Assembly (NCBI RefSeq): GCF_016859125.1
Contig: NZ_CP069338.1
Span: 3,436,501 to 3,500,500 of the forward strand
DNA: 64,000 nt
DNA from: Archangium violaceum
GTDB lineage: Bacteria > Myxococcota > Myxococcia > Myxococcales > Myxococcaceae
Direction: 5' to 3'
In this document: one piece after another, positions 13,167 to 36,074 of the stretch
Layout of the letters: every line of letters starts with the position of its first letter
Numbering within the stretch: position 1 is the stretch's first letter
Position numbers and translations under genes: made by a program
Notes under the pieces: generated by a model
Databases searched by the model: none
Told to the model about the DNA's origin: nothing
Seen by the model: only the letters and a program-made list of their open reading frames with translations

Positions 13167-13901
13167 TCAATCAGGGTGCATGGGCCGTGGCTCAACGACG
13201 AGCCGGAGCAGACCTCGTTCCTCAAGCAGTTTCTGGACATGCCAGGCGAGAGCGATGTGCTCGGGGTTGTTCGGGGTGAGGCGCTCGGGAGTCAGAATGA
13301 CGAGCGTGCCCTTGTCGCCTACCGGCTCCACCCGCACCGGCGCGGGCAGGGCAGGCACCTCCCCACGCTCTCGCGAGAAATACGTCATCCACCCCAGGAA
13401 GCAGCCGATGCGACTGCCGCCGGAGAGCTGGTTCCAGAGTCCGTCCGCCGTCGCGAGCGCCCACTCCGGTTCCCAGGCCAACGCAATGGCATGCATGACG
13501 CCCGCGACAACGGGCGCGCTGAGCATCCGCTCGTGACCCAGGGCCTCCTCGGGGTAGAAGAGCCACAGGAAGTTCGGCGCAACCTCAGCCTTCGACCCAC
13601 ACCTGAGCATGACCATACCGCCTTGGTCCTGCTTCACGTGCCCCGTCCACGCACCAAATGAAAAACCGTCCGAGCCGCTCTGATACTTCTTCTTTCCGAA
13701 GAAGCTCAGGAAGCTCTCATGCGTGGGCTCGAATCCGAGCTGAAGCGCCTTCCGGCTGGAATTGTTCTGCTCATACCAGCGCGTGTAGCTCGGATGGCAC
13801 TTCGCCAGCAGCCGGAAGAATGTCTCCGCTCGCCGAGCACACTCCTCAGCCGAGTCTGGCCGCGCTCCCCAATAAGCTTTGATACCGTAAGACTCGCTCA
13901 T
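13167..13901 (-). CDS. Immunity protein, Imm52 family
   Basis: A 244-residue cytoplasmic protein matching the Imm52 type found beside Tox-REase-5 toxins. Features are the N-terminal ESYGIKAYWGARPDSAEECA, a central NFLWLFYPEEALGHERMLS, and WEPEWALATADGLW. It would bind and neutralise the nuclease domain of the toxin encoded just upstream: the toxin stop at 13914 is 12 bases from this ATG. The C-terminal GDKGTLVILTPERLTPNNPE is also characteristic of the family. Confidence in the pairing is high because both members of a known toxin-immunity pair are seen side by side. Confidence 0.8.
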   Translation of the reverse strand: MSESYGIKAYWGARPDSAEECARRAETFFRLLAKCHPSYTRWYEQNNSSRKALQLGFEPTHESFLSFFGKKKYQSGSDGFSFGAWTGHVKQDQGGMVMLRCGSKAEVAPNFLWLFYPEEALGHERMLSAPVVAGVMHAIALAWEPEWALATADGLWNQLSGGSRIGCFLGWMTYFSRERGEVPALPAPVRVEPVGDKGTLVILTPERLTPNNPEHIALAWHVQKLLEERGLLRLVVEPRPMHPD

Positions 13902-13913
13902 GCGTGACGGCTC

Positions 13914-15737
13914 TCATAGCACTGGCTGCGTGTACACGACCTCAATCGCATGGAGGCCGCGAGCGTCGAAATGCTTCCGAAGAACCGCGACCATCCTCTC
14001 CTCCGCGACGTGCCACCGCAGGCGCATTCCTCTCGCAACCCGGAGCTGCCGCTCCGCCTGTTCGAGCATGCCGTTGAGCCCCTGGTAGTTCCACTGGGGG
14101 TCGAGCTTCTTATCGAACCACTTCTGATACTCGCGGGCCTTCGCTTCAAGCAGTGTTCCTGTCTTCGGATCAAAGCCGTCGTACTCCGCGCAGTCTGTTC
14201 CGCGGCAGACCTTGTAGCACCACTTCTTGGGGGCACCCGTTACCTGGGCCTGGTAGGCCCGGGCCTGCTCCGACATGTTGGAGGTGTCCTCCACCCACTG
14301 CCCGGGCCCGCCTACTGGAGGCCACCCACCACCGCCCCCCGCGCCCTGGGCGCTCGTGTTGGCCATGTGCAGGACGTAGGTGGCACTCAGCGCTGGCGCC
14401 GCCGCCGTGGCAACACTCCCCACGGGTACGGCCACCAGGCGCACCGCCAGGAGCCCGTCGCCCGAGAGCGACAGCAGGGGCACCGTGAGGCTCCCCAGCT
14501 TGCCGCCCCAGGCCGCCACCTTCGCGGTTCCAGCACCGGCCGTGCCCACCGTCAGCACCGCGCCCATCGCTATCCTCGATACGGTGCGCACCTTCTCGGC
14601 GTAGGGCTTGTGGCGGAACTCCTCCCACAGTTGCGGCGAGTGCTCGTAGAGCTGCCTCACCGCCCCCGGAAGCTGCGCCAGCCCCTCGAGCGTCTCGCCC
14701 GTGTAGAAGACCAGCCGGTAGAGGCCTTCCACCATGTCCACTACTGCGAGCACCGCCCCCTCGGCCACTGCCAGCGCCGGGTTGTCGTCGGGCTTGTAGA
14801 GGCCCGCCGGGCGCGCCCCTTTCGGAACCTCGAGCGCCTGGTCCACCGGGAAGAGGCGCTCGCCGTCGCTGGCGTAGAATGGGCCCACCTCGAAGCGCCC
14901 GGCCCGTAGGGTCCCGTTCTCGGCGAGCACGACCTGACCGATCTTCTGGACCGCCACTCCCGAGGTGGCCTTCACCAGATAGCCGTCTGGACGAAGCACC
15001 AGCAGCCGCGAGAAGCGCCGCATCCGCGTGTATAGCTCGTCCCTCGTCACGACCTCGCCCCCAACGGCCACCTCCAGGAGCAGGTGTGCCGCCATGCGGC
15101 GGAGCCCGAAGTTGTCCGGTGTCAGCGGCGTGGAGAGCAGATGGGGCACCAGCTCCAATGCCTGCTGAGGCGCCAACGTGCGCCCGTCCCTGGGCAACGC
15201 GGTGCTGGGCACACCCGCTCGCGCGAGGAACCCCTGGAAGTAGTCGAGCGTCATGGGCACCTCGAAGGGCCGCCCGTCGCCCACGCCATCCGGCCATCCA
15301 ACGCCCTTCCCCTCCAGGTCCTCCTCCTCGTCCGCCGCGCTCGCGCCGCGCGGTCGCTGCCGCGCCCGCTCCGGCGCCCCGGCAGCCTCAGCCGCGCCCA
15401 CCACCACCGGGACACCGGCCTCGCGCTCCTCGGCTCCCGCGTCAGTGCCCTCCGGGTTCTCGTTGGCCTCCCCGGTCGTCTGTGCAGACACCTCCTGGGC
15501 CCGGCCAGCGATCTCCTGTGGCCTGGAACTCGTGTGCTGTACCCGCCACCGATGGCGAGCGCCGCCAACCAGCATCCCGCCCATGGGGTAGCCCGTCGCG
15601 CACGCCGTCTGCAGCCCGAGGAGCACCAGCTCCACTACACGCGAGGTCCACCACGGCCTGCCCCGCGAGCTCCGCCGAACCTTGAGATTCGTACCGCCGC
15701 CCTCCCCCGCCCCGGGACTCGGGTATTCACTCGACAT
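13914..15737 (-). CDS. Lipoprotein polymorphic toxin with Tox-REase-5 nuclease domain
   Basis: A 607-residue toxin. The N-terminus has a basic region then RGRPWWTSRVVELVLLGLQTAC, a lipobox leader like that of the other toxin in this window. Residues about 75-480 form the long carrier region with two hydrophobic stretches (about 400-470). The C-terminal 110 residues are a Tox-REase-5 fold: CAEYDGFDPKTGTLLEAKAR provides the Asp and the E-x-K pair (LLEAKA) of restriction-endonuclease-like enzymes, followed by helix LDPQWNYQGLNGMLEQAERQ. Target is expected to be DNA. ATG 15737 has GGGGGGAGG eight bases upstream and overlaps the end of a small upstream frame by 11 bases. The cognate Imm52 gene follows. 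Confidence 0.8.
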   Translation of the reverse strand: MSSEYPSPGAGEGGGTNLKVRRSSRGRPWWTSRVVELVLLGLQTACATGYPMGGMLVGGARHRWRVQHTSSRPQEIAGRAQEVSAQTTGEANENPEGTDAGAEEREAGVPVVVGAAEAAGAPERARQRPRGASAADEEEDLEGKGVGWPDGVGDGRPFEVPMTLDYFQGFLARAGVPSTALPRDGRTLAPQQALELVPHLLSTPLTPDNFGLRRMAAHLLLEVAVGGEVVTRDELYTRMRRFSRLLVLRPDGYLVKATSGVAVQKIGQVVLAENGTLRAGRFEVGPFYASDGERLFPVDQALEVPKGARPAGLYKPDDNPALAVAEGAVLAVVDMVEGLYRLVFYTGETLEGLAQLPGAVRQLYEHSPQLWEEFRHKPYAEKVRTVSRIAMGAVLTVGTAGAGTAKVAAWGGKLGSLTVPLLSLSGDGLLAVRLVAVPVGSVATAAAPALSATYVLHMANTSAQGAGGGGGWPPVGGPGQWVEDTSNMSEQARAYQAQVTGAPKKWCYKVCRGTDCAEYDGFDPKTGTLLEAKAREYQKWFDKKLDPQWNYQGLNGMLEQAERQLRVARGMRLRWHVAEERMVAVLRKHFDARGLHAIEVVYTQPVL

Positions 15738-20171: not shown

Positions 20172-20514
20172 CGTGGATGATTCCTCCTGGGAGCCCCGTG
20201 TCCGGGAACTCTCCCCTGACCTCCGGGCAATATGGGGATGGGGAGGAGGAACTCAGGACCCCATTCCCCACCGGTCCACCGCTCGGCCGGTCGCCAGGTC
20301 CACGGGGGGCCGCGGGTCGCCACCCGCTTCCGGGCCATGCGTGGGGAGGCTGCCCTCGTCGCTCCGAGGGGCACGCCGTGGTGCTGGCGCCGGACAGGCG
20401 CACGGAAGTCGGGGCACCGTCCGATGTAAGCGTGTATATGCTCGGCGGGACGTACGAACCCTCGTGCTGGCGGCGCTTGGATGAGCCTCCCAGATGAGGG
20501 AGCCGGAGAGCGCG
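20172..20514. other. Divergent promoter region between KaiC-like and ATPase genes
   Basis: No gene is seen in this 343-base stretch. The minus-strand end holds the Shine-Dalgarno AGGAGGA of the KaiC-like gene. Near 20433-20440 there is an AT-rich TGTATATG that might be part of a -10 element for the rightward module, but no matching -35 is convincing. No clear inverted repeat was found. Confidence 0.3.
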
Positions 20515-21648
20515 ATGGGCCTGCCGTTCGACACGTTGACGATTCACCGCCTGCGGGGTCTCCAGGATGTGGAACTGGCGGGACTCGGGCGGGTGAATCT
20601 GCTCGTGGGCGGCAATGATTCGGGCAAGACGTCGGTGTTGGAGGCCCTGTCACTCTACTGCAATCCGCTGGACCCGATGCAGTGGGTTCACGTGGCACTT
20701 GGACGCGATCCCCTGATGTCCCCCTCGGACCCCCTTCCGGTTTCGGAGGTCACGAGGTGGTTGTTTCCACAACGTCCGGCTCCGGGTACCCACGAATCAG
20801 GGGAAGCCCGTATCCGGTTGACGGCAACCGGGAGGAGCGCCGTCCGCGGTGTCCAGGCGAGCTACCTCGGATTGACGGGGCTTCCGTCGAGACGGATGGA
20901 GCCACGACGCATCATCCGGATGGGCTCCGGAGCGGGAGAGCAGGAGTTGGAGCCGACCAGGGAGCGCCACGGGGCCAGGCTCGAGGGCCTCATCGAGACG
21001 GAAGAGGCGCAGCCCATGCGTTTCACGTTCTCCGTCTGGGATGATGGACAGGTGGAGCCACTGGGCGGCGCGGTTGCCGCGCGCTTGCGTGTGCCCGTCA
21101 GGCTCGTGAGCCCTCCGGACCATTGGCTGGGCTCCTTGACGGTCAGGAGCTTCTCCGAACTGCGCCTGAGTGGGCTCGAGGAGTCCGTTCGCGTGCTCCT
21201 GAAGGCCATCGACCCACGCATCGACGGCCTGGAGGTTCTGGCACCCAGCGGCGAGGCGGTCTTGTATGTGAGGGACGCGGCCGCCGGGCTCATCCCCTTG
21301 AGCATGTTCGGAGACGGTATTCGCCGCACGCTCCTCCTGGCGCTCGTCCTACCGCAGGTCAAGGGCGGCGTGCTCTTGATCGATGAGTTGGAGACGGCCA
21401 TCCACGTCTCGGCGCTCGGCAAGGTGTTCCGTTGGATGCTCGAGGCCTGCAAGCAGCACGACGTCCAACTCTTCGCCACGACCCACAGCCTGGAGGTGGT
21501 GGATGCCATCCTCGGCGCCGATGACACCCGGGAAGAGGACATCGTCGGCTTCCGGCTGGAACGTGGAGAGGGCCGTACGTCGGCCCGGCGCTTTGGCGAG
21601 GATCTGCTCAAGCGCATGCGCTACGAGCGCGGGCTCGACGTGAGGTGA
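20515..21648 (+). CDS. AAA/ABC-type ATPase of a two-gene candidate defence module
   Basis: A 377-residue ATP-binding protein of the AAA_15/AAA_21 (OLD-like, SMC-like) group. Walker A GGNDSGKT lies at residues 32-39, directly after a short N-terminal strand as in OLD and RecF ATPases. The Walker B is VLLIDELETAIH near residue 289, and the following LFATTHSLEVVDA provides the conserved His switch. There is no C-terminal TOPRIM; that function is carried by the next gene, which overlaps this stop by four bases. ATPase plus separate TOPRIM-like partner is the architecture of several anti-phage systems (for example PARIS). I chose ATG 20515 because GGAGAG precedes it; ATG 20494 is an alternative. 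Confidence 0.82.
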   Translation: MGLPFDTLTIHRLRGLQDVELAGLGRVNLLVGGNDSGKTSVLEALSLYCNPLDPMQWVHVALGRDPLMSPSDPLPVSEVTRWLFPQRPAPGTHESGEARIRLTATGRSAVRGVQASYLGLTGLPSRRMEPRRIIRMGSGAGEQELEPTRERHGARLEGLIETEEAQPMRFTFSVWDDGQVEPLGGAVAARLRVPVRLVSPPDHWLGSLTVRSFSELRLSGLEESVRVLLKAIDPRIDGLEVLAPSGEAVLYVRDAAAGLIPLSMFGDGIRRTLLLALVLPQVKGGVLLIDELETAIHVSALGKVFRWMLEACKQHDVQLFATTHSLEVVDAILGADDTREEDIVGFRLERGEGRTSARRFGEDLLKRMRYERGLDVR

Positions 21649-22427
21649 GCATGCGGTATGCCTACCTGGTGGTCGAGGGCCCTCACGATGTCGAATTCGT
21701 CGGGCGCCTGCTGAAGCCTCATCGCTTCAAGCGTGAGAACAATGAGTCGCGCTTGGACCCATATTGGAGGCCGCTGGTACCCACGAGATTCCCCTACGGC
21801 GGAGACCTGAGCCGACGTGTCCCGGTGCCGACGTTCTTCGTGTCCGATACCGTCTCGGTCGCGGTGCATGCCTCCGGCGGTGACTCGGAGATTGCGAACC
21901 GGGTGGAAGAGACGCTTCAAGCCGCTCTCGTCGCTCCTCCAGATGCTGTCGGGGTATTGCTGGATGCCGATCGGGCCCTGCCGCCGGTGGAGCGTTTCGG
22001 CGAGGTCCGCCATGCGTTGCAAGCCAGGGTGAACCTCGTCGTGCCCGAGCAGCCAGGGCAGGTGTCCGCCGCCTCGCCCCGGTGTGGAATCTTCGTCCTG
22101 CCGGACAACGTGAATCCCGGAACCCTGGAGTCCCTCCTGTTGGAATGCGCGGACATTCCCTATCCGGACCTCCTCTCGGATGTTCGCTCGTTGGTGTCCA
22201 GGGTGCGGGCGGGCGCGTATTCGCTGACTCCCGATGACTTGAAGGACTTCAACAAGCCCGCCGGGGCACACAAGGCCATGGTGGCCTGTATGGCGGGCAT
22301 CCTGAGGCCGGGCAAGGCCATCCAGGTGTCCATCCAGGACAACCGGTGGTTGGAGGGCGCGGCGCTGGACCTCCCGCGCATCGCGGCCCTGAGGGAGTTC
22401 CTCCGGGTTCTCTTGATGCTGCCTTGA
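21645..22427 (+). CDS. DUF3226 / TOPRIM-like protein coupled to the ATPase
   Basis: A 260-residue protein (258 if ATG 21651 is used). It matches the DUF3226 pattern: an N-terminal VVEGPHDVEF with the TOPRIM Glu, a central GVLLDADRALPP with the Asp-x-Asp, and IFVLPDNVNPGTLESLLLEC with D and E in the last motif. A late Lys-rich helix (AGAHKAMVACMAGILRPGKA) is typical. TOPRIM proteins of this kind are Mg-dependent nucleases or nucleotide hydrolases. The GTG start at 21645 lies within the last codon of the ATPase (GTGA overlap). It would be the effector of the pair, with the ATPase as sensor or controller; this is inferred from architecture. Confidence 0.75.
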   Translation: MSMRYAYLVVEGPHDVEFVGRLLKPHRFKRENNESRLDPYWRPLVPTRFPYGGDLSRRVPVPTFFVSDTVSVAVHASGGDSEIANRVEETLQAALVAPPDAVGVLLDADRALPPVERFGEVRHALQARVNLVVPEQPGQVSAASPRCGIFVLPDNVNPGTLESLLLECADIPYPDLLSDVRSLVSRVRAGAYSLTPDDLKDFNKPAGAHKAMVACMAGILRPGKAIQVSIQDNRWLEGAALDLPRIAALREFLRVLLMLP

Positions 22428-31666: not shown

Positions 31667-33955
31667 CTACTGACGAGCCTCCGTGCTGCAGACGAAGTAG
31701 TGCTGATGGGGACGGCACCGTGCGTTCACGACGTCGCTCCAGTTCTTCTGGGGCCAGATGGTCTGGGCCCAGTGGGCGACCTTCTTCACGAGCTCGGGGC
31801 TGACGCCGTGGTGTTTGAATTGGGGTAGCAGATACCAGAGCTTGTCACCGGCGGAGCCGTCGTAGTTGCCGGTGAGCTTCTCCCGGGTATTGGCGACGGT
31901 GCTGTTCTTCCACCAGAGGGAGGGGGGGAAGTCGTTGGACTTCTCCCACCACGCGTAGAGGAGGGCCTCGAGGATGCCGCGACGCTCCTCCTGGGAGATG
32001 TCGGCCCATCCCTTCATGAAGCTTGGAGCCACGAGCCGGCTGATATCCGCGACGGTTTTGGTGGCCCACCCGGGAGAAGGAGTGTGAGGGCTGATGGGAG
32101 AGGCCTTGAGGGAGGGACGGATGCGCTGTCCATCGGTGCCGATGGAGTTGTCGGCGATCTGCATGGCCTTGACCAACCAGAGGGTCAGCAGACCATTCAA
32201 GGGGACGTAGGGCTTGGGGGTGTTCTGGAGCTCGCCGAGGAAGGCATAGGCGTAGGGCCAGTCGATGGGGCGCTGTCCGTCACGATGAGCACCATCGGCG
32301 TGGTTGCCATTGTAGAGGATGAACGAGAGTTGGTACCAGGCGGCGGAGAAGTAGACGAACATCAGAGGGGAGTTGTTGTTGATGCCCGTCCTGTCGCGAT
32401 GAAGGCCCAGCAGGTGGGGGGAGGTGTCGAAGCTGTAATTGGTCATCCAGCCCCAGTCCTCGCGGGACTCGGAGAACAGCTGCTTCTGGTGACCCTCGAG
32501 TCCGAACTCCTGCATGATCTCCCACATCTTGACCATGGCCCAGAGGGCGGTGGAGTACATCTTCTGGCCGTACACCGAGTCATGGCCGATGAGTGAGTCG
32601 GGGAGCTTCTGCTTCTTGCCGGAGGACGTGTTGCACCGTTGGGAGTTGGGGTACCTCGGGCAGAGGAACTGGTAGAGGGCGAGATTCCACTGCTGACTCG
32701 CGAAGTGCAGGCGGGTGAAGTAGGGCGAGTACCCGTTCTCCCGGACGTAGCGTGCGCGGGCGCGCATGGTCGAGGCGTCTTCGGCGCGGCCACCGGACTT
32801 CCCGTTGTAGAGCGTGTAGGCCGGGGACTCGAGGAAGTTGCTCCCCCACGCGTCCATGGGGTGGATGGTGGGAAGCCAGTGATTCCAGTCGGGGAGCTGG
32901 AGGGGGATGGGCGTGGTGCGGGTATTGAGGTAGCCCGTGGTGCGCACGTCGCCCTGTTTGATGTGGGGGAAGCGGGGGAAGATGTACGGGAGGATGTCGC
33001 GGTCCTTCTCGAGGACCTGGTCGATACCGGCGCCCGCGGCCCAGTGCGCGACGGGCTGGGAGCCAACGCGAGGGCCGGGTTGGTAGGGAGGGTTCCAGGG
33101 GCGGCCGGGATTGGGGACGCCCTGGAGGGTGCGGATATAGGAGGCGATCTGCTTGCCCTCCTTCTCGGACAGCCCGTGGAACCTGGAGCGCTCGATGATG
33201 GCCTGGTTCGAGTAGTTGAAGTATTTGAGATCCCTGCCGTCCTGGGTGTGGCAATCCATGCAGTGGGCCTTGATGCGGACGGGCCGCTTGCTGGATTGAA
33301 CCAGGGCCGCGGTGCGCCAGAGCGCTTCGCCGGCCTTGATGGATTTCTTGTCTGGGAAGGGAGGCCGCCAGGTGTTGGGATCCTCCTGGGTGAACTGGCT
33401 CTCGGCGAAGACGCGGCTGCCATCGGGGCGGATGAAATTGAGCTTCAGCACGCGGAAGCCGATGGAGCGCCCATCGGTGTGGTTGAGCCGGAAGTGGATC
33501 GTGTTGTTCCCGGGCGAGAGGACACCGGCGGGGAGCTGGATGCGCAATGGGAGCGTGGCGAAGGCGCCCCCAATCCCACCGAAGTTCTTCCCGAGTCCCT
33601 CGACGGAGGCGGTCGAGTTGTTGAGGGAAATCCAGGTGCCGGTGTTGAAGCGGATGCTGGCCTTGTTCTCGTAGCTGAGGTTGTGGACCTGGAGCCAGAG
33701 CTCGAGGGGGGAGTGGGCATCCCGCTCCGAGATGGGCAGGGTGACGGAGCTCTTGGTTCCATCCTTGCCGATGACCTCGATGGGCAGGGTGATGCCGAGA
33801 GACGGGGCGCGTGGGGCGGCGGCCAGGGCCCGTGGCGCGTGGATGCAGAAGGCGAGCGTGGCCAGGGAGAAGAACGTGAGGAGGGCCGCACGCGACACCG
33901 GCGACGGTGGCGAGTCGCGATGGGGAGTGGGCCGCTCTACCTGGTGGGGGCGCAT
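31667..33955 (-). CDS. Large secreted protein with a single CxxCH motif
   Basis: A 762-residue exported protein (hydrophobic leader RAALLTFFSLATLAFCIHAP, then APRALAA). The first 170 mature residues are beta-rich, like a jelly-roll (LQVHNLSYENKASIRFNTGT; GNNTIHFRLNHTDGRSIGF). AHCMDCHTQDGRDLKYFNYS near residue 236 is a CxxCH heme-c-binding motif followed by helices like a small cytochrome c (IASYIRTLQGVPNPGRPW). The remaining 450 residues are unfamiliar, rich in Trp, Tyr and His (NHWLPTIHPMDAWGSN). I recognise no family for the whole. It could be a secreted c-type redox enzyme. No coupled gene is present. Confidence 0.7.
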   Translation of the reverse strand: MRPHQVERPTPHRDSPPSPVSRAALLTFFSLATLAFCIHAPRALAAAPRAPSLGITLPIEVIGKDGTKSSVTLPISERDAHSPLELWLQVHNLSYENKASIRFNTGTWISLNNSTASVEGLGKNFGGIGGAFATLPLRIQLPAGVLSPGNNTIHFRLNHTDGRSIGFRVLKLNFIRPDGSRVFAESQFTQEDPNTWRPPFPDKKSIKAGEALWRTAALVQSSKRPVRIKAHCMDCHTQDGRDLKYFNYSNQAIIERSRFHGLSEKEGKQIASYIRTLQGVPNPGRPWNPPYQPGPRVGSQPVAHWAAGAGIDQVLEKDRDILPYIFPRFPHIKQGDVRTTGYLNTRTTPIPLQLPDWNHWLPTIHPMDAWGSNFLESPAYTLYNGKSGGRAEDASTMRARARYVRENGYSPYFTRLHFASQQWNLALYQFLCPRYPNSQRCNTSSGKKQKLPDSLIGHDSVYGQKMYSTALWAMVKMWEIMQEFGLEGHQKQLFSESREDWGWMTNYSFDTSPHLLGLHRDRTGINNNSPLMFVYFSAAWYQLSFILYNGNHADGAHRDGQRPIDWPYAYAFLGELQNTPKPYVPLNGLLTLWLVKAMQIADNSIGTDGQRIRPSLKASPISPHTPSPGWATKTVADISRLVAPSFMKGWADISQEERRGILEALLYAWWEKSNDFPPSLWWKNSTVANTREKLTGNYDGSAGDKLWYLLPQFKHHGVSPELVKKVAHWAQTIWPQKNWSDVVNARCRPHQHYFVCSTEARQ

Positions 33956-34166
33956 GCCCTGAATCTACCGCGAGCCACGCGGCGGTAACGGGGACCGGTG
34001 CATGAACCCGCGCCTTCCTGCTCGGTACAGTTCCCGTGCATTTTTCGTACTCCCTGTTCCAGAGAGGAAGAGGGGGCACCCGTCACGGTCCTGGACACCC
34101 AGGGGCCGGCACGTATTCTCGGCGTTCCCCTCCGTGGGCGCGCATTGCACCCAAACCAGGTGTCCG

Positions 34167-35465
34167 ATGGTCAAGCTCAACTGGCTCCAGGTGAACAGGT
34201 TCCGCTCGGTGAAACCGGGAACGCGGCTGACCTTCAACCCGGGCTACAACGTGCTGCTCGGGCAGAACGGCACCGGGAAGACCACGTTGCTCAACCTGGT
34301 GGCGGCGGCCGTCAAGTCGGACTTCAGTGAGTACAAGGAAGAAGAATTCGACCTTTCGTACGAGCTCGCCTCGGACAAGGGAACGGTCACCTTTTCGGTG
34401 CGCAATGAGAACCGTGCTTTCTCTGGGGCCGAAGGTGCTTCGTTTCGGAAACTGGGAGAGCTGTCGCCCGAGGGAATGATATTCTCCCCGGTGCTCTCCG
34501 TCACAGCGGTCGTTTCCATCAAACAGACGGGACTTCAAATCAAGCTCGATACCGAAGGCAAACGCGGCTCGCTGCTGCGTATGGATGGGCCAACTCCAGG
34601 AGAACCTTTCGAGATCGACCTGTCTGACCTCGCTGAGTTGACGCCAGGGTTTGCGCTCTTCTACGGATTGTCGCAATGGGAAGCCAATGCGTCTGTTGTA
34701 CCGAAGCCATCTTCCGAAATCGCCGAACTCGGCGAGCTCATCCTCTCCGGGGTTGAACGCTTCGATGAGTCACTCGAGTATTTCAATAACCTGGGACGAC
34801 TTCATGTCACTTTCTACCGAAGGACGGATGGGTCCGTTTTCCCCGGTCGCGGCACCTTCGATATCCCCACGGGGATGCAGTTACGTGGTCTGGCGCAAAA
34901 GAAGTGGGGAGCAGACCGGTATGTCCTGACCGATGCCCAGATTCATTTCCTGAACCGCACAATTCAGCTTCTTGACATTGAGTCCGCTGAAGCAATCATC
35001 GAGCTGCAGGACTCGAGCAAACAAGGGCAGTTCGCCTTCATGCGTCTTGGCGGCATGCGATTCTATTTCAGCCACCGGGGCGGCTGGAAGATCTCGGAGA
35101 AGATGCTCAGCTATGGCCAGAAGCGCATGCTCGCATTCATGCACTACCTGGACACGGCCCGGTCGGTCGTCATCGCCGACGAACTCGTGAATGGCCTCCA
35201 CCATCGCTGGATTCGCTCCTGTTTCGAGGCCATCGAGCAACGACAGGCCTTCCTCACCAGCCAGAATCCCCTCCTGCTCGACTATCTGAATTTCCAGTCT
35301 CCCGAGGAGGTTCGCTCCGCCTTCGTCCTCTGCGGGTGGGAAAAGGGCCCCGAGCAGATGGTCTGGGAGAACATGTCCGAGGAGGCCGCACGGGACTTCT
35401 TCGACTCCTACAAGGTCGGGTTCCAACAGGTCGGCGAGCTGCTTCAATCCAAGGGGCTCTGGTGA
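34167..35465 (+). CDS. AAA/ABC-type ATPase of a second two-gene module
   Basis: A 432-residue ATP-binding protein of the same broad class as the one at 20515. Walker A GQNGTGKT is at residues 32-39, the same position as in the first module. The signature-like stretch KMLSYGQKRMLAFMHYLDTA precedes Walker B VVIADELVNGLHH (about residues 334-346), and FLTSQNPLLLDYL replaces the usual switch His with Asn. Sequence identity to the first ATPase looks low. The codon use is visibly more AT-rich than the neighbours, pointing to transfer. ATG 34167 follows CAGGTG. The next gene starts inside the stop codon (GTGA). Confidence 0.78.
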   Translation: MVKLNWLQVNRFRSVKPGTRLTFNPGYNVLLGQNGTGKTTLLNLVAAAVKSDFSEYKEEEFDLSYELASDKGTVTFSVRNENRAFSGAEGASFRKLGELSPEGMIFSPVLSVTAVVSIKQTGLQIKLDTEGKRGSLLRMDGPTPGEPFEIDLSDLAELTPGFALFYGLSQWEANASVVPKPSSEIAELGELILSGVERFDESLEYFNNLGRLHVTFYRRTDGSVFPGRGTFDIPTGMQLRGLAQKKWGADRYVLTDAQIHFLNRTIQLLDIESAEAIIELQDSSKQGQFAFMRLGGMRFYFSHRGGWKISEKMLSYGQKRMLAFMHYLDTARSVVIADELVNGLHHRWIRSCFEAIEQRQAFLTSQNPLLLDYLNFQSPEEVRSAFVLCGWEKGPEQMVWENMSEEAARDFFDSYKVGFQQVGELLQSKGLW

Positions 35466-36074
35466 GCGGCCATCTCTCTCGTCCCTCGGTCATGGTGCTG
35501 ACCGAGGACTCCGGCACGGGCGCTCATGACACCGTGCGCGCCCTCGTGAAGGAGATGCTCAAGCTGCTCGTTCCCGGTGTGCGGACCCACTGCATCGACT
35601 TCAAGCCCCTGGCAATCGAGCGAGAACGAGCGCGAATTCAAATCGCGCATGCTTCCTCCCATCGAAGCCGGTGTGCGTGCCTTCATGAAGCAGCCTCCGG
35701 ACTCCAACGCTCCCAGCGAGCGCATGAAGAGGCTCCGCCTGCTCGTCCCCTTCTACAGCATCGAGGCCTGGGTCTATCAGAACACCCGGGAAGCCAGACA
35801 CCTGTGCGAGGAAGAAGGCTGCAAGCAGTGCCATGTGAAGATCGCGGAGTGGGAGAAGAACCGCGCGAGCCTCGACGAGGTCACCCATCCCAAAGGAGCG
35901 CTCTGCTTCCAGGACAAGTACAACGCGCATCTGGCCTCCTCGGGATTTCCGGCCCGGGAGGTCTTCGATGCCAAGGCGTCCTTCTCTCGCACCGTCATGG
36001 GCCTCCTGGAATGTGACGAGCTGACCACCGCACTGGAGCAGACCTACGCCGCCCCTGATTCACAGGCTCCCTGA
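35462..36074 (+). pseudogene. TOPRIM/DUF4276-like partner gene, frameshifted
   Basis: Start GTG overlaps the ATPase stop. The first frame reads VMVLTEDSGTGAHDTVRALV and on to HCIDFKPLA, then near 35615-35640 the coding shifts by one base into NEREFKSRMLPPIEAGVRAF and continues through PFYSIEAWVYQNTREARHLC and CKQCHVKIAEWE to the stop at 36074. Joined, it is about 203 residues. VLTEDSG and YSIEAW resemble the first and last motifs of TOPRIM-type DUF4276 proteins; the Asp-x-Asp motif expected between them is absent, as if that part were deleted. CxxxxxCxxCH may bind a metal. Either the partner is dead or the base count is wrong in this sequence. Confidence 0.6.

Follow-up and report, generated by a model that had tools for sequence, protein, structure and literature searches.

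The stretch of DNA analysed here (the window: 64,000 nucleotides of Archangium violaceum, positions 3436501-3500500 of a genome assembled as one contig of 12,677,854 bases) carries a pair of overlapping genes that is, in the reading we favour with fair though not high confidence, a recently inactivated two-gene module, composed of a sensor or regulator ABC ATPase and a putative OLD-like TOPRIM metal-dependent nuclease, that would bring about triggered growth arrest. The role of such a module is probably either defence or that of a toxin-antitoxin pair, and defence is suggested by the relatives of the two genes and by the pattern of evolutionary rates along the ATPase.

The first-pass annotation of this DNA had described an ATPase and partner module with a Walker A motif at residues 32-39 and a GTGA overlap between the genes, and the open reading frames and the sequence itself confirm this (Table 1). 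The Walker A motif reads GQNGTGKT, the signature LSYGQKR, and the DE of Walker B is followed by LVNGLHHRWI. The lower-GC codon use claimed for the module is borne out by local composition: the ATPase, with a GC content of 0.577 and a GC3 of 0.739, is the lowest among the 57 genes that a simple gene caller finds there, itself included, over the whole window (gene GC mean 0.687, sd 0.039), a composition that agrees with horizontal transfer, short of proof. When positions 20000-50000 of the window were compared by blastn with the closest intact pairs, found in the genomes G031, G032 and G033, positions 34091-34410 were 82-85% identical to them and there was no further match to these pairs upstream of 34091.

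Table 1. Features of the ATPase/partner module, in window coordinates
Feature	Position	Strand	Basis
Upstream stretch that accompanies the module in relatives; probably promoter and leader	34091..34166	+	blastn
ABC-type ATPase (Rad50/RecF/AriA-like), 432 aa, motifs intact	34167..35465	+	ORF from ATG to TGA, Pfam, structural model
GTGA overlap of ATPase stop and partner start	35462..35465	+	Sequence; the -4 overlap recurs in relatives of the window type
Partner N-terminal fragment with EDSG (TOPRIM Glu) motif	35462..35612	+	Start GTG at 35462
Deletion junction: about 167 bp missing relative to intact relatives, frame shifted, HxDxDxxW core gone	35612..35625	+	Alignment
Partner C-terminal fragment, out of frame with its own start, YSIEAW motif	35613..36074	+	Alignment; coding pattern still conserved

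The ATPase matches the Pfam families AAA_21 (50.6 bits) and AAA_23 (36.5 bits) against a cut-off of 27 bits and is also above the cut-off for ABC_tran. Among PADLOC models AriA (51.2 bits) comes ahead of AbiLi (36.8 bits), with PtuA and others just below; PDC-M38A is not among the 25 of 108 PADLOC matches listed. The best PDB sequence match of a profile built from 20 ATPases is AriA (E 2e-10, over profile positions 20-89 only), and the predicted structure of the window ATPase (pLDDT 86.2) resembles Rad50/SMC heads with Z up to 18.8 and AriA with Z 16.6 at about 15% identity. Given these fold matches and the rank of AriA in the profile search, we assign the protein to the Rad50/RecF/OLD-type ABC ATPases.

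Intact versions of the partner, which the first-pass annotation had thought worth seeking elsewhere, do exist, both in the same genome, where an intact ATPase/partner pair lies at about 3.262 Mb, and in relatives such as G031, G032 and G033, which hold the closest intact pairs of the window type, their ATPases being 58-59% identical to that of the window. The partner is matched in 16 of the 96 genomes of the taxonomic family, remnants included, with two places in the window genome, and in 18 of the 195 genomes of the phylum. One scan of 84,980 species genomes with a profile of 16 aligned partners gave 21 loci, which belong to Archangium, Corallococcus, Sorangium, Polyangium and other Myxococcota or deltaproteobacterial metagenome-assembled genomes (MAGs), with a few in MAGs outside this set, one of them from Planctomycetota. 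An ATPase of the same family stands directly upstream of the partner in 20 of the 21 loci, separated by the GTGA overlap (the window type) or by a gap of 6 bases (the type of partner P0005), and in a few cases spaced otherwise. The exception is a short ORF of Polyangium fumosum (L126:5977-6489), 171 aa long and partner-like with an HxDxDxxW core, in whose locus no ATPase was found.

The ATPase is far more widespread than the partner, the window ATPase finding matches in 65 of the 96 family genomes as against 16 for the partner. We examined 59 distinct ATPases, 35 of them paired (the window, with its broken partner, counted as paired) and 24 with no partner in the nearby DNA, and the two groups differ at several motifs. 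After Walker B, H-H or H-Y is found in 34 of 35 paired and 0 of 24 solo proteins, with HHxW in 30 of the paired ones; a serine precedes the signature [YFW]G in 34 of 35 paired sequences and in one of 24 solo sequences, 23 of which have LG; and the Walker A lysine is replaced by arginine in five of the 24 solo ATPases and in none of the paired rows (L034, its start cut, being unreadable there). One of these arginine-bearing proteins is a solo ATPase of the window genome itself (6860658-6861947; L008:5656-6948), with a Walker A of GENGTGRT, and the arginine is common to this solo ATPase in all three genus genomes examined. Another solo ATPase, in G033 (L095:6597-7842; 2378597), combines a paired-type LSYGQKR with an altered sequence after Walker B, NGLPHPW, and is perhaps a decaying former pair; ATPase matches of similar identity to it also occur in G031 and G032.

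In a quick ATPase tree of 57 rows, computed with no bootstrap and leaving out L034 and the distant L127, the label paired or solo changes three times, and the starred branches force at least two changes, from which it follows that there was more than one loss, or gain, of the partner; several paired rows are long-branched in this tree and their joins were flagged by the program. The window ATPase joins the three paired rows closest to it (support 95), and these lie inside a group of 23 that holds 19 solo rows.

Paired and solo ATPases also differ in where they vary. In comparisons of pairs with 70-93% identity in residues 257-432 (L034 and L127 dropped, and the segments picked after viewing the alignment), residues 85-195 reach 0.17-0.79 of the identity seen in 257-432 for paired ATPases (median 0.39, 52 pairs) and 0.87-1.19 for solo ones (median 1.04, 62 pairs), two disjoint ranges from comparisons that share branches and are non-independent. 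Where dN/dS was computable, dS being saturated or not computable in some segments, paired ATPases gave 0.31-0.58 in residues 85-195 and 0.07-0.18 in 257-432, and solo ATPases 0.16-0.77 and 0.17-0.62, the two segments lying closer together. The solo pairs vary among themselves, some with a relaxed core and others with a slow middle, and point to no single cause. The fast middle of the paired ATPases would be expected of a sensor region whose triggers keep changing; repeated exchange of the region of residues 85-195 would explain it too, and is a possible cause because dS is often raised there.

These observations bear directly on the alternative that survives best, that of domestication, in which the ATPase has or gains a role of its own, the partner is dispensable, and the window represents an early step towards the solo ATPases. 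Besides the repeated changes of label on the tree, it is favoured by the finding of an ATPase match of the size and identity range of the own-genome solo in each of the six genus genomes searched, the three examined all being without a partner and having common neighbours, and by a report that the ATPase domain of YbjD acted without its Toprim domain (PMC13261556). The window ATPase, however, retains every paired-type motif, and its dN/dS of 0.18 in residues 257-432 is close to the values from six other paired comparisons (0.07-0.16; solo, 0.17-0.62), although it may simply not have decayed yet. We regard domestication as possible but rather unlikely for the window gene.

For the favoured module of sensor ATPase and nuclease, we propose a mechanism modelled on PARIS, in which AriB is reported to cut tRNA once AriA senses a trigger (PMC12409363). 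The ATPase and the separately encoded nuclease would be made together by translational coupling, and in intact copies the two proteins would most likely form a complex in which the ATPase keeps the nuclease inactive. The fast-evolving middle region of the ATPase (residues about 85-256) would meet a trigger, perhaps a phage protein, and ATP binding or hydrolysis, relayed via the HHxWI motif, would free or activate the nuclease, which would then cut tRNA, other RNA or DNA, so that growth stops. In the window copy the nuclease has lost its DxD core, so that the effector arm would be dead, with the ATPase still intact. A different arrangement, somewhat less probable again than domestication, is a plain toxin-antitoxin pair with no phage sensing: the partner would be a TOPRIM nuclease with constitutive toxicity, countered directly by the ATPase as antitoxin; losing the toxin would do no harm, and the antitoxin would linger. 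Such a pair has precedent in AAA antitoxins and TOPRIM_OLD toxins that were put through toxicity-neutralisation assays, according to PMC10440598, and it accords with a window locus in which the ATPase is intact and the partner alone is broken; a plain antitoxin, on the other hand, would not be expected to show a fast middle between very constrained ends, and deletion of ariA is reported in PMC9122126 to be non-toxic for PARIS.

To the right of the module lies a PhzC-PhzF-family gene and to its left, on the minus strand, a gene (31667-33898) with no Pfam match. Homologous DNA for the latter is present in all six genus genomes (67-88% in pieces), and it has a second place in the window genome near 8644 kb. 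Elsewhere in the window (13167-15635) are a Tox-REase-5 toxin gene (5.6e-17) and an Imm52 immunity gene (4.3e-67). Homologues of these two genes, 77-79% identical, adjoin the intact pair in G033 (L091:8637-10737) and were not seen beside the pair in the DNA compared from G031 and G032; the arrangement in G033 may reflect a common insertion hot-spot for conflict genes, or chance. No repeats convincingly bound the module. Around the 21 loci, 151 genes shorter than 900 aa were called within 5 kb and 150 of them scanned against PADLOC at E<=1e-15, with matches to 63 families. In the 25 of these 63 families listed, each with 3-4 members (PD-T4-6, mad6, MkoA, DpdF and PsyrT among them), no clear defence-island signal was seen; we take PD-T4-6, mad6, MkoA, DpdF and PsyrT to be kinase- or helicase-type models that match housekeeping genes too. 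The neighbours are common mainly to close relatives, with a few broad families found at more of the loci. A profile search of viral contigs gave zero partner matches, as did 50,697 phage and 72,556 plasmid records queried with the partner L107. The absence of phage, plasmid and clear defence-island association counts mildly against a defence role.

The partner belongs to none of the family models that we could bring to bear on it. Searches of Pfam, NCBIfam and PADLOC at E<=10 gave nothing for partner P0005, and among the 19 intact partners DUF4276 is touched by three (best E 4.3e-4), any one HEC-01B model of PADLOC is matched weakly by at most two (best E 0.0057) and Csx19, also of PADLOC, is touched by one (E 0.0042). 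OLD-like_TOPRIM (PF20469) and DUF4435 (PF14491) are outside the 14 Pfam families that the 19 match at E<=10, and DUF3226 and PDC-M38B are likewise outside the families matched at that level. In the reverse direction, the DUF4276 model recovered none of this family's partner places in 96 genomes and OLD-like_TOPRIM found zero places in the window genome. Profile-profile comparison did not bear out kinship with DUF4276, OLD-like_TOPRIM or DUF3226, the partner coming out without significance against OLD, DUF4276 and DUF3226 (P 0.72, 0.066 and 0.092); the references compared with each other gave better values (OLD with DUF4276, P 9e-4; DUF3226 with DUF4276, P 1.5e-4), so that the method is able to see a moderate tie.

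In the numbering of L107, residues E15, D16, D98, D100, W103, E164 and W166 are invariant in all 19 intact partners, S162 is present in 15 and K207 in 14. The AlphaFold model of L107 (mean pLDDT 94.9) runs in the order strand, helix, strand, helices, strand, helices, strand, helices, with E15 and D98/D100 adjoining predicted strands 8-14 and 91-96, the positions of the TOPRIM Glu and DxD; the glycine that TOPRIM domains retain after strand 2 has no conserved counterpart after predicted strand 45-48 of the partner family, a point against the TOPRIM reading. The top four PDB structures for the model are all OLD C-terminal TOPRIM regions, aligned over 170-177 residues (rmsd 4.1-4.3) with Z of 6.7-7.3, where according to the comparison tool a Z below 8 can merely reflect a common arrangement. 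Foldseek gave a best match with probability 0.92 and E 0.035. Lower matches include topoisomerase I and GajA, mixed with unrelated entries; AriB, AbiLii and RloB are absent among the matches listed in the structure searches, and a viral structure library gave no convincing match. On the strength of the model and the motifs the partner is very likely a TOPRIM protein, and the predicted fold of the intact partner resembles TOPRIM, not the clearly metabolic, non-TOPRIM fold that had been named beforehand as the outcome to watch for. It could instead be another Rossmann-like metal-binding protein, no nuclease, with its acidic motifs serving a different reaction. The low structural scores, the flavin reductases and azoreductases among the structural matches, and the failure of profile comparison to reach significance with any TOPRIM family tried all lean that way, but a single family, that of the OLD TOPRIM region, supplies the top four structural matches, and the acidic motifs come after predicted strands in TOPRIM order; we think this alternative improbable.

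The first-pass annotation had also drawn attention to a CxxxxxCxxCH group in the partner. The group is indeed present in the window partner, in a remnant in G006 and in two of the three closest intact relatives, the third having Q in place of H. As a zinc-binding hallmark of the family it was rejected, being confined to these closest relatives, with just its first Cys recurring more widely (17 of the 19 intact partners). A match of the partner C-terminal fragment to Fer2 (E 0.0081) was likewise discarded, as it lies under the cut-off and none of the 19 intact relatives matches Fer2.

The first frame of the window partner, from GTG 35462, enters out-of-frame sequence after about 35612, and the remainder continues in another frame to 36074. 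Against the intact copies of G031, G032 and G033 the window partner is without 167 alignment columns, not a multiple of three, that hold the H-x-D-x-D-x-x-W core; the remaining internal length differences, +16, -1 and -3, total a multiple of three, and the breakpoints are ambiguous, the nearest relatives being just 73-78% identical there. The 258-aa intact partner of the same genome matches the window copy with residues 4-59 and 108-256, in different frames. The window gene thus keeps the E and SxE-W motifs and has lost the central DxD, so that its description as having TOPRIM-like ends was right in substance, as was the view of it as damaged. Smaller 3' remnants of a window-type partner, without the rest of the gene, are found in two more genus genomes, G006 and G004, at one locus common to both; orthology of that locus with the window locus was rejected, the flanks of L087 mapping to scattered places in the window genome (G000). 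A sequencing or assembly error that hides an intact partner in the living strain is very improbable: although there is one assembly of this genome and conservation is good over the remainder of the gene, a coding gap of about 167 bp in a single-contig genome is no slip of 1-2 bases, and with truncated remnants of the same gene in two related genomes a small assembly slip is a poor explanation. From the sequence comparisons the damage is very probably real. In a Byssovorax MAG (L110:5980-6093) a full-length ATPase is followed by a partner whose first frame has 38 aa, either a broken partner or a MAG frameshift.

The loss may also be recent. Compared pairwise with the three intact relatives, the window ATPase gives a dN/dS of 0.26-0.29 and the partner 3' piece one of 0.20-0.23 (0.27 for the latter against the G006 remnant), values that cannot isolate the window branch and come with dS up to 1.3, near saturation in some comparisons; no stop interrupts the frame of the 3' piece. 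Because both genes still look constrained, we lean softly towards a young loss.

A second ATPase and partner pair, module 1, lies at 20494-22427 of the window. Its ATPase matches PDC-M38A (2.9e-58) and its partner DUF3226 (2.1e-18), a family matched in 25 of the 96 family genomes, and its genes overlap by 4 nt (21645-21648). The first-pass annotation had said that the module studied here copies this one in layout, with different sequences. The likeness of layout holds, the 4-nt overlap included, but a copy or close kin it is not: a close tie was rejected, since 16 residues around the P-loop are the whole alignable stretch of the two ATPases and the two partners have no detectable alignment, and PDC-M38A and DUF3226 mark module 1 as different. 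Nor did the suggestion of repeated gain of related systems hold up: the two modules are, at most, dissimilar representatives of a broad ABC-ATPase/TOPRIM kind. A search of the window genome for four families gave DUF4276 at one place, DUF3226 at one, OLD-like_TOPRIM at none and the present partner at two, and by a rough reckoning the chance that two among four such modules lie within 14 kb is about 1 in 75; as the closeness was also noticed before it was reckoned, it is weak evidence of clustering.

Taken more broadly, and as a tentative proposal to which we give somewhat less than even weight, these modules would form an undescribed class of split OLD-like immune modules, mostly of Myxococcota, with an ATPase that carries a fast sensor region and HHxWI coupling and with repeated loss of the nuclease, after which the coupling motif and the fast middle disappear from some of the ATPases so freed, which become long-lived chromosomal genes; the window would then capture a loss soon after the event. 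If so, predatory multicellular bacteria hold a new ATPase/TOPRIM module whose effector is without a family model in the libraries searched, and the contrast between paired and solo ATPases names residues for nuclease coupling or trigger sensing (HHxW after Walker B, LS[YF]G and region 85-256), a question common to PARIS, AbiL and OLD systems.

Among known systems, PARIS (called class 4 OLD) and AbiL are described as combining an ATPase of this type with a separately encoded TOPRIM protein (PMC10568477, PMC10440598). PARIS, whose defence is set off by an anti-restriction protein and works by tRNA cleavage, has the gene order of the present module, an ABC ATPase followed by an adjacent gene for a separate TOPRIM-like protein. 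Its detection rule as given in PMC9122126 asks for an ATPase with AAA_15 or AAA_21 over the Pfam threshold, and the window ATPase scores 50.6 bits for AAA_21 against 27. AriA is moreover its best PDB profile match and close in fold (Z 16.6), yet over positions 20-89 only and at about 15% identity, and AriB carries DUF4435, unlike the 19 intact partners, which have no DUF4435 match at E<=10. AbiL, RloAB and HEC-01 combine an AAA_21 ATPase with a DUF4276 or RloB-like TOPRIM, and the AbiLi model matches the window ATPase at 36.8 bits, behind AriA at 51.2; on the partner side three of 19 touch DUF4276 and two of 19 HEC-01B weakly (one Csx19 match being equally good), and an E-x-W-L pattern aligns, but the profile comparison is not significant and the DUF4276 model misses all partner places in 96 genomes. 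The PDC-M38-type pair of module 1 has the same gene order, the ABC ATPase first, and the same 4-nt overlap, with just the P-loop common to the ATPases and nothing detectable between the partners. OLD of classes 1 and 2 and GajA of Gabija, which have a Rad50-like ATPase, a TOPRIM and a helical domain, supply the best structural matches of the partner model. The catalytic residues given for the Burkholderia OLD in PMC6755086 are E400, E404, D455, D457, T506, E508 and K562, and E15, D98xD100, S162xE164 and K207 of the partner follow the order of E400, D455xD457, T506xE508 and K562, with no counterpart of E404 seen; this likeness is one of order, no residue-level structural alignment lying behind it. 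In OLD the ATPase and TOPRIM form one chain, whereas here each has a gene of its own, both in the window and at the 20 of 21 loci with an ATPase, and the PF20469 model finds none of the partners. The module thus fits none of the named families tested (PARIS, AbiL/DUF4276, OLD or PDC-M38), and is likely an OLD-like ATPase/TOPRIM module split over two genes, of the same kind as PARIS and AbiL, that has lost its nuclease by deletion.
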